A stretch of 37,466 bases of DNA, from NCBI GenBank assembly GCA_025357545.1, contig JANXPB010000166.1, forward strand, positions 1-37,466. Direction: 5' to 3'. The DNA comes from Holophagaceae bacterium. Its GTDB lineage: Bacteria > Acidobacteriota > Holophagae > Holophagales > Holophagaceae. Positions within the stretch are counted from its first letter, which is position 1. Each line of letters begins with the position of its first letter. The notes beneath the pieces are model-generated. The model was not told the DNA's origin. It was given only the letters and a program-made list of their open reading frames with translations, and did no database searches. This document shows, in pieces, positions 1 through 2,018 of this stretch. Position numbers and translations under genes: made by a program.

Positions 1-129
1 CGTCCCATGAGCGCCCAGGACGCCGCCGACCCAGCGGAAGTACGCCGCGAAATGATGCGGGCGCTGGCCCACAACATCCGCTTGGACCTAGGCAAGAAGA
101 CCGGCTGGGGGGAACCGGAGGAAAACTGA
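1..129 (+). CDS. 3' end of an unidentified protein
   Basis: An open frame runs from the first base to a TGA at 127-129 and encodes about 42 residues. It may enter from outside the window or start at the ATG at position 7, which would give a 40-residue protein. The peptide is charged and partly helical, with an Arg-Glu-Met-Met-Arg stretch and a Lys-Lys-Thr-Gly-Trp-Gly near the end. I do not recognise a family. It is followed by the 307-bp repeat element and lies tail-to-tail with the M20 peptidase gene. Being truncated by the window edge, nothing firm can be said of its function. Confidence 0.45.
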   Translation, partial: RPMSAQDAADPAEVRREMMRALAHNIRLDLGKKTGWGEPEEN

Positions 130-140
130 GTCAGGGCCTG

Positions 141-148
141 CTATTTCT
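141..148. repeat. left 8-bp target-site duplication
   Basis: CTATTTCT immediately outside the left inverted repeat of the 149-455 element. It is identical and in the same orientation to 456-463. Removing one copy plus the element restores a continuous sequence running from the intergenic DNA into the 3' end of the peptidase gene. Confidence 0.75.
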
Positions 149-455
149 GGTTCTTCACGGATTTGCGGGAACTGTCCTGTGGCTACGCGGTTTCAGGGGG
201 AAACAACACCGTAGCGCCCCCCAAAAAAACCACGCGGAGGGAAGCGGAGGAATCAGTAGGCAGGATCGATCCGTATTTCGTCATTTTTGGGATCGCCGTG
301 GGTCGCGATTCCAGCAATAGCATCCAAATGCCCGGGCTCACCAGCGGCACCTAAGCGGGCTTTCGAGCAAGAAATCCAGGATCTTTTCTCCGCGACCCTC
401 CGCGCCTCCGCTGCCCTCCGCGTGGTTGGCTTTTCGCTCAATTCCGTGAAGAACC
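149..455. mobile_element. MITE-like element with terminal inverted repeats and target duplication
   Basis: A 307-bp non-coding element. Its ends are perfect 13-bp inverted repeats, GGTTCTTCACGGA at 149-161 and its reverse complement at 443-455. With mismatches the similarity extends to about 23 bp. The 8 bases just outside each end are identical (CTATTTCT at 141-148 and 456-463), as expected of a target-site duplication. Inside is a second long inverted repeat, 228-250 against 405-427, matching at 22 of 23 positions. No transposase-sized ORF is present, so it would have to be mobilised in trans. The GG-T-TCTTC end and 8-bp duplication resemble the ISL3 family from memory; that assignment is tentative. 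This also accounts for the only gene-free stretch above 300 bases in the window. Confidence 0.8.
228..427. repeat. internal long inverted repeat of the MITE-like element
   Basis: The arms at 228-250 and 405-427 are inverted copies of 23 bp with one mismatch (position 413). They are rich in CTCCGCG/CGCGGAG words. They lie nested within the terminal repeats, so a transcript of the element could fold into a long hairpin. Confidence 0.7.
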
Positions 456-463
456 CTATTTCT
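456..463. repeat. right 8-bp target-site duplication
   Basis: CTATTTCT immediately outside the right inverted repeat of the 149-455 element. On the minus strand it contains the TAG stop codon and the last lysine codon of the M20 peptidase, so the insertion abuts the stop codon without changing the protein. Confidence 0.75.
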
Positions 464-1832
464 TGATGCCACTCACGGTCTGGAAGTAGTGCGCAAAGGC
501 CACCATGCCGCCGCCGGCCTGTTCCCAATCATAGTTCTCGTTGGGCGCGTGGTAGCCGTGGCTGGGCAGACTCAGGCCCAGGAAATAGACTTCGCAGCCC
601 AGGAGGTCCTCCATGGTCTTCACGGCGCCGATGCTGCCGCCTTCGCGGGTGAAGGTGCAGGCCGCGCCGAAGGCGAACTGATAGGCATCACGGATGGCCT
701 CGGCATAAGGCCCGGTGACATGGCCCTTGAAGGGCGCCAGGCCGTGCTCTTCGTGGACTTCCACATCGGGATTGTGCTTCTTCACGAATTTCTTGATGCG
801 ATCCATGGTCTTGCGCTCATCCATGTCCGGCACCAGGCGGCAGCTCAGCTTGATTTCAGCCCGGGGCGGCACGGCGCTCTTGATGCCGGGGCCGGTGTAG
901 CCGCCCACGACGCCGTGGACTTCCATGGTGGGCCGTCCCCACACGCGCTTGAGGATGCCGATGGGATCCTTGGTGCGGAGGCCCTTCAGCATGTGGTCCT
1001 GCATGAAGGTCTCGGTGGTGAACCCGGACGTGGCCCAACCAGCCAGTTCCTGCTTGGAGGGCTTCACTACCTCTTTATAAAAGCCGGGGATCTTCACCTT
1101 GCCGCTATTGCCATCCATCATCTTGCTCACCAGTTCGATGAGTTCCGCGAGTGGATTGCGGGCCGCGCCGCCCACCACGCCGCTGTGCAGGTCATGGTCG
1201 GCGGTTTCAAGGGTGAGCCGGAACCCTTTCAATCCGCGCAGGCCCGCCGGAGTGCTGGGCTTGCCGCGGGTGATCCAGACCGTGTCGCTCACCACGATGG
1301 CGTCGGTCTTGAACCGGTCCTTATGCAGGGCGAGGCCGCCTTCGAAATTCGGCGATCCGATTTCCTCTTCCAGCTCCCACAGGAAATGGATGTTCATGGG
1401 CACGCCCGCTTTTCGCGCCGCCAGGGCGCCGAAGAAGGCTGTCACGGCGGGACCCTTGTCGTCGGTGCTGCCGCGGCCGCGGTAGGTGTCGCCCTCCACC
1501 ACGAAATTGAAGGGCTCGGCGGTCCATTCCGGTTCATTGGCGGGCTGCACATCCATGTGGTTGTAGACCATTACCGTGGGCAGCGCGGGGTCATCCCCCA
1601 GCCACCCGTGGATGAAGGGATTGCCTGCCGTCTCCAGGATCTCCGCCTGGCCGCCGTGCCGCTCGAAGAGGCCCTTGGCGGCTTCGGCGCAGCGCCGCAC
1701 GTCTCCGGCTCGGGCTGGGTCGGCGCTGATGGAGGGAATCTCGACGAGCAACCGCAGCTCGGCTTCAAAAGCCTCGCGGTGGTCTGCGGCGAAGGAGGCG
1801 AGGGCTTCGCGGGTCAGCAAATCGGGATTCAT
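456..1832 (-). CDS. M20 family metallopeptidase (dipeptidase-like)
   Basis: Predicted cytoplasmic two-zinc peptidase of 458 residues, close to the CNDP/PepV-like dipeptidases of family M20. Visible family motifs are H92-M-D94, the GRGSTDDKGP segment with bridging Asp near 124, the catalytic and metal Glu pair in WELEEEIGS (about 156-157), and a C-terminal His in LPSHGYHAPNENY. The HSGVVGG segment fits the dimerisation domain. The start at 1832 is preferred over an in-frame ATG at 2018 because it has an AGGAG five bases upstream and begins where the family's helix begins; the longer version would also abut the divergent gene at 2019. It stops exactly at the MITE-like insertion. The exact substrate cannot be told from sequence. 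Confidence 0.88.
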   Translation of the reverse strand: MNPDLLTREALASFAADHREAFEAELRLLVEIPSISADPARAGDVRRCAEAAKGLFERHGGQAEILETAGNPFIHGWLGDDPALPTVMVYNHMDVQPANEPEWTAEPFNFVVEGDTYRGRGSTDDKGPAVTAFFGALAARKAGVPMNIHFLWELEEEIGSPNFEGGLALHKDRFKTDAIVVSDTVWITRGKPSTPAGLRGLKGFRLTLETADHDLHSGVVGGAARNPLAELIELVSKMMDGNSGKVKIPGFYKEVVKPSKQELAGWATSGFTTETFMQDHMLKGLRTKDPIGILKRVWGRPTMEVHGVVGGYTGPGIKSAVPPRAEIKLSCRLVPDMDERKTMDRIKKFVKKHNPDVEVHEEHGLAPFKGHVTGPYAEAIRDAYQFAFGAACTFTREGGSIGAVKTMEDLLGCEVYFLGLSLPSHGYHAPNENYDWEQAGGGMVAFAHYFQTVSGIKK

Positions 1833-2018
1833 GGCGGCTCCTGTCCGGAACCTCCACCTTACCGCCCGCAGAACCCTAGATGAAGCCACACTAGCGAAAC
1901 CCGCCCCCAAACCAGGGACCGCCAGCCCTACAAACCGCTCCAGCCCTGGCTGACCCGCGACTCGATCCAGGCCTTTCGAGGCCAGTACACTAGGCTGGTA
2001 CAACTTGACGGGAGTCAC

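Follow-up and report, generated by a model that had tools for sequence, protein, structure and literature searches.

The 307-bp segment at positions 149 to 455 of the sequence analysed here is very probably (we would put it at about 0.9) a MITE. Comparison with related genomes indicates that it is related to insertion sequences (IS) of the ISL3 family, from which it differs by an internal deletion, and that an ISL3 transposase acting in trans inserted it between two convergent genes, at the A+T-rich sequence CTATTTCT. The sequence, called 'the window' throughout, is the whole stretch of 37,466 bp that was analysed; it is contig C169 of the 3.27-Mb, 239-contig genome of the host (G000). In the proposed route an ISL3-family IS would have undergone internal deletion to give the MITE, and an ISL3 transposase acting in trans would have inserted this at CTATTTCT, duplicating 8 bp. 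The segment is a new example of an already known kind of element, parasitic and mobile in origin.

Structure of the element

The features of the element and of its surroundings are collected in Table 1. The terminal inverted repeats are perfect over 13 bp (GGTTCTTCACGGA at 149-161 and its exact complement at 443-455) and remain 87% complementary when extended to 23 bp (149-171 and 433-455). An earlier sequence-only reading of the window had described these perfect repeats, the identical 8-bp flanks, a nested 23-bp inverted repeat and the lack of an ORF, and was right to the base. Within the whole 37,466 bp this is the single pair of perfect 13-bp inverted repeats lying 60 to 1000 bp apart with identical 8-bp flanks. 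None of 200 shuffles of the first 1200 bp yielded an inverted repeat of even 10 bp between identical 8-bp flanks.

No coding capacity of interest is present. Stop-free runs within it reach at most 67 codons in any frame, and a tblastn comparison of the transposase with the element returned only a 10-residue chance match. Nor does a PF13366 gene, of the type described below, lie between the inner arms, where there is no ORF of such a size. Since the element does not encode an ISL3 transposase, it is not an ISL3 IS proper and is filed only as an ISL3-type MITE. Its predicted fold is very stable on both strands (-139 kcal/mol, with z values of -6.2 and -5.5). An Rfam scan of positions 1-1500 with E values up to 1 gave no match, and a scan for intrinsic terminators found none in the MITE and one site at 101-118, which falls within the range of shuffled sequences. 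A search with the MITE against 72,556 plasmids was also without a match.

Table 1 Coordinates of the element, its parts and the adjoining genes in the window
Feature	Position	Strand	Evidence or remark
Target duplication, left copy, 8 bp, CTATTTCT	141..148		Identical to 456-463
Non-autonomous element (MITE), 307 bp	149..455		Sequence; second full copy G000:C21:19557-19854, 92% identical
Terminal inverted repeat, left, GGTTCTTCACGGATTTGCGGGAA, first 13 bp perfect	149..171	+	Matches each end of the G025 1563-bp ISL3 IS at 19 of 20 positions
Inner arm, left, AACCACGCGGAGGGAAGCGGAGG	228..250	+	Also standing alone and beside GxxExxY genes
Middle between inner arms, without ORF or detectable transposase remnant; partly common to decayed copies (GATTCCaGCAATaGCATCC)	251..404		Alignment
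Inner arm, right; 96% complementary to 228-250	405..427	-	
Terminal inverted repeat, right, GGTTCTTCACGGAATTGAGCGAA on the minus strand	433..455	-	
Target duplication, right copy	456..463		Includes CTA (456-458), the M20 stop codon TAG
M20-family peptidase gene, intact, ends in the target duplication	456..2018	-	Pfam M20; relatives in all same-genus genomes
Convergent neighbour gene, 3' end (...RPMSAQDAADPAEVRREMMRALAHNIRLDLGKKTGWGEPEEN-stop)	1..129	+	Common to G003, where the MITE is absent

Insertion site

The closest relatives of the M20 gene are in Holophagaceae MAGs and in Geothrix, which places the host, an uncultured bacterium, in that acidobacterial family. The gene ends in ...SGIKK-TAG. 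Reading its end on the minus strand, where the 8-bp duplication has the sequence AGAAATAG, bears out the earlier description of a TAG inside it and of an intact protein. Because this TAG is part of the duplication, the M20 protein is unchanged; the element is harmless at its landing site since duplication of the target restores the stop codon. At the orthologous place no insert follows the M20 stop in 4 of the 4 other genomes of the genus. In one of these (G003; also JANYJQ010000084.1, locus L171) an empty site was found between the same two convergent genes, and the alignment of the joined flanks spans it. The M20 gene and its neighbour were thus approximately 11 bp apart before insertion. 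A transcript running through the MITE would form a long hairpin and could in this way influence both convergent genes at their 3' ends.

Other copies in the host genome and genus

Further copies were searched for in the source genome and its relatives, and were found. The second full copy (on contig C21 of the host genome) has a perfect 8-bp duplication of its own (AAACTTTT). It lies between ilvE-like and ilvC-like genes (named by sequence), 24 bp past the ilvC stop, so that both young copies, this one and that in the window, are located directly 3' of the stop codon of a gene. Truncated copies are present in the host genome on contigs C65 and C114 and older, decayed copies on C152, C67, C83, C191, C190 and C185, with one more in the same-genus genome G003. 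The copy number in the host genome is low (two full copies and about eight partial or decayed). Eight copies, from the host genome and G003, can be aligned end to end or partly and share one layout: an end, approximately 75 bp, an inner arm, a variable middle, an inner arm and an end.

A search of the host genome with the pattern of the ends gave 12 sites compared with 0 for the reversed control pattern. One end-like match (C212:8021) looks like the end of a decayed copy; another (C9:4874) appears inside coding sequence and was taken as chance. Some decayed copies of the MITE carry an insertion of a third palindromic module (CCGGGGACACACGGGGATGAACGGGGACAAA), which also occurs elsewhere in the genome (L005:1330-1420, L009:1350-1450, L019:1690-1820 and L240:1300-1420).

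ISL3 insertion sequences with matching ends

ISL3 transposase genes (PF01610) were searched for in 36 relatives and the borders of the corresponding ISs were worked out. Intact ISs with ends matching those of the MITE are found in sister genera of the family, and none in the five genomes of the host genus. The IS in G025 (1563 bp) has ends, GGTTCTTCACGGATTTGAGG and GGTTCTTCACGGATTTCCGG, that are each identical to the left end of the MITE at 19 of 20 positions, and is flanked by 8-bp duplications (AAAAAAAG, GAAAATAT and others). In G013, also from a sister genus, the IS is 1323 bp long, and the five copies that were read have perfect A+T-rich 8-bp duplications that all differ (TTTTGTAG, ATTTTTTT, CTTTTTGT, AAAAAAGA and TTTTTTCA). 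The transposases of the two score 332 to 337 bits against the NF033550 ISL3 model (NCBIfam cut-off 180); a PDB search with the G025 transposase gave no match. Mobilisation by an ISL3-type transposase, which the sequence-only reading had suggested, is supported by these NF033550-positive enzymes, whose ISs share the ends and the 8-bp duplications. These ISs resemble the MITE in their terminal GGTTCTTCACGGAnTT.CGGGG and in the A+T-rich nature of their 8-bp target duplications, but they come from a different genus of the family and the MITE includes neither a transposase gene nor a recognisable remnant of one.

A transposase of the G025/G013 type is the best candidate for the moving enzyme and would have moved the copy in the window, although it is not seen in the host-genus genomes examined, which are incomplete. 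No autonomous IS with MITE-type ends was found in five genomes of the host genus, an absence that is weak in such fragmented MAGs; the source IS may since have been lost from the genus or may be missing in its assemblies. This absence and the lack of a transposase remnant in the interior of the MITE both count against the explanation that we prefer.

G025 also contains a shortened element of 367 bp (L218:306-672), which retains both ends and the last transposase codons but has lost most of the gene. It matches positions 11-285 (82%) and 1483-1571 (92%) of the IS stretch with which it was compared; its flanks are CTTATTTT, the left one with an additional T. Judged by its sequence, this derivative directly links an ISL3 IS with a MITE as an intermediate stage, in a lineage other than that of the window.

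Two copies of the G025 IS (L211:187-4166 and L212:229-4210) are split by approximately 2.4 kb with a tyrosine-recombinase-like ORF and a transposase-like ORF.

The inner arms as a separate repeat

The nested inverted repeat had been regarded as a feature of the MITE. It is certainly present, but is not private to it. With two mismatches or fewer allowed, the host genome contains 24 matches to the inner arm (CCACGCGGAGGGNAGCGGAG). Arms are found alone, without ISL3-type ends and mostly just past gene ends (L230, L235, L239, L243 and L246), as well as around GxxExxY genes. The inner inverted repeat is a second, separate repeat carried within the MITE.

Modules of like design are carried by other elements of the family. 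The leader of the G025 IS, between the left end and the transposase start (L209:319-408), includes one with other letters (GCCGAGG words), whereas the related G013 IS has no such leader. G025 contains 56 matches to the GCCGAGG word pair in all, several of them in the repeat described next. An inverted module of the same words is found in a 1.87-kb repeat of this genome, together with an IS630-like DDE transposase (DDE_3) and a GxxExxY (PF13366) gene; copies are located at L264:291-2160, L268, L275, L277 and L279, and the five compared are approximately 99% identical or more. An ISL3-ended element in G014 carries the words CACAGAGGACACAGAGG, which are repeated across G014 and its sister and are absent from G000 and G025. 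A given word type recurs across one genome, both alone and inside different transposons (the ISL3 leader and the IS630-like element of G025). The words are not constant among genera, or even from one locus to another (GCGGAGGGtA, ACGCGAATG, CACGGATTA, CGCCGAGG and CACAGAGGA).

GxxExxY genes bracketed by inverted arms

In two genomes of the host genus, G003 (L319:498-963) and G001 (L340:1448-1908), and in G022 (L341:1445-1908), inverted arms bracket a PF13366 gene that neighbours a purL-like gene. These arms contain runs of 18 to 21 bp that match the inner arm of the MITE with at most one mismatch. The frequency of such arrangements was assessed by local alignment of the 330-bp upstream flank with the reverse complement of the 330-bp downstream flank, a score above 12 being counted as arms. 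Arms were present at 21 of 30 PF13366 genes from ten genomes and at 0 of 59 controls (25 distal controls from those loci, 14 flank pairs of M20 genes and 20 window genes). The corresponding Fisher p of approximately 1e-13 is too small because some loci (the four from G025, and L319, L340 and L341) are related to each other as orthologues or as copies. The cut was fixed after the controls had been seen; for random pairs from all the repeat-rich loci fetched, the 99th percentile is 14. Some arms are of other kinds than word repeats (those in G013, and a CCCCGG type in G001 and G002). The host's own GxxExxY gene (L318:1080-2020, on contig C60) lies among many copies of another word type, CCACGGATTACACGGATT.

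REP/BIME palindromes are short, G+C-rich and intergenic, and some are associated with a RAYT transposase gene that they bracket. The inner arms, though not the MITE as a whole, resemble them as short, G+C-rich, palindromic intergenic repeats, some with a bracketed gene. They differ in that their words are short and periodic and vary between genera, and the gene is of the GxxExxY PD-(D/E)XK type rather than a Y1 transposase. The literature searched contains essentially nothing on GxxExxY genes, and no known role for them was found there.

Arm-bracketed GxxExxY genes may form a separate, apparently undescribed system. More tentatively, and with the odds somewhat against it, we suggest that the inner repeat of the MITE could be a gene-less remnant of such a system, in which the nuclease gene is bracketed by inverted arms of periodic words and its product would behave as if it helped to copy or convert the arms. 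As to function, the inner arms may serve as a terminator-like spacer, or else belong to a repeat system that depends on GxxExxY.

Alternative explanations

The host genus has ISL3 transposases of its own, in G000, G002 and G004, and these might have moved the MITE. They belong to other clades (36 to 41% identity at best) and their ISs have GTGTGGGT-type ends, with those seen in G000 beginning GGCTCTTC, GGTTCTTC or GGTTCCTC. Only the outermost GG.TCTTC is common to these and the MITE. An example of such ends, L021, is identical to the MITE end at 12 of 20 positions, compared with 19 of 20 for the G025 IS, and the sub-terminal CACGGA.TTG.GG is missing from ends of this type. We consider this source unlikely.

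Two other readings concern the nature of the element itself. That it is encoded by the host as a structured element (a bidirectional terminator or a stabiliser of mRNA 3' ends) selected at convergent gene ends would agree with the very stable fold on both strands and with the position of both young copies directly past a stop codon. Any inverted-repeat element is expected to fold, however, and the terminator scan was empty within the MITE; none of the four relatives in the genus has the element behind its M20 stop. We judge this origin very unlikely; a terminator role could be a side effect of the insertion. Alternatively, the inner word-repeat module, with its GxxExxY-type arms, could be the primary mobile unit and the ISL3 ends secondary: the host genome has the arms at more sites than it has the intact MITE, some of them standing alone, and they bracket GxxExxY genes. 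In both young copies, however, the 8-bp duplications directly adjoin the ISL3-type ends and not the inner arms, so that the copy in the window was inserted by its outer ends. This makes a primary role for the inner module very improbable.

Relation to known elements and significance

Prokaryotic MITEs have been reviewed without mention of ISL3 (PMC10969869), and no description of an ISL3-derived MITE was found in the literature searched. The 307-bp element resembles those in the review in being short, without an ORF, with terminal inverted repeats, target duplications, several copies and a stable hairpin; it differs in its low copy number. It also resembles TIMEs, miniature elements derived from Tn3 (PMC4133298), which are likewise moved in trans, of low copy number and predicted to form strong hairpins, but which have Tn3-type ends instead of the ISL3-type ends and 8-bp duplication found here.

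The element provides a clean case of an ISL3-type MITE: one bacterial family offers young copies and an empty site, and also the type of IS that is the parent and a deletion derivative at an intermediate stage. With all of these stages in a single family, one can trace stepwise how such an element originates. The larger gain is a lead: the inner repeats also bracket GxxExxY genes, which leads to a testable proposal linking these genes with short 'word' palindromes.
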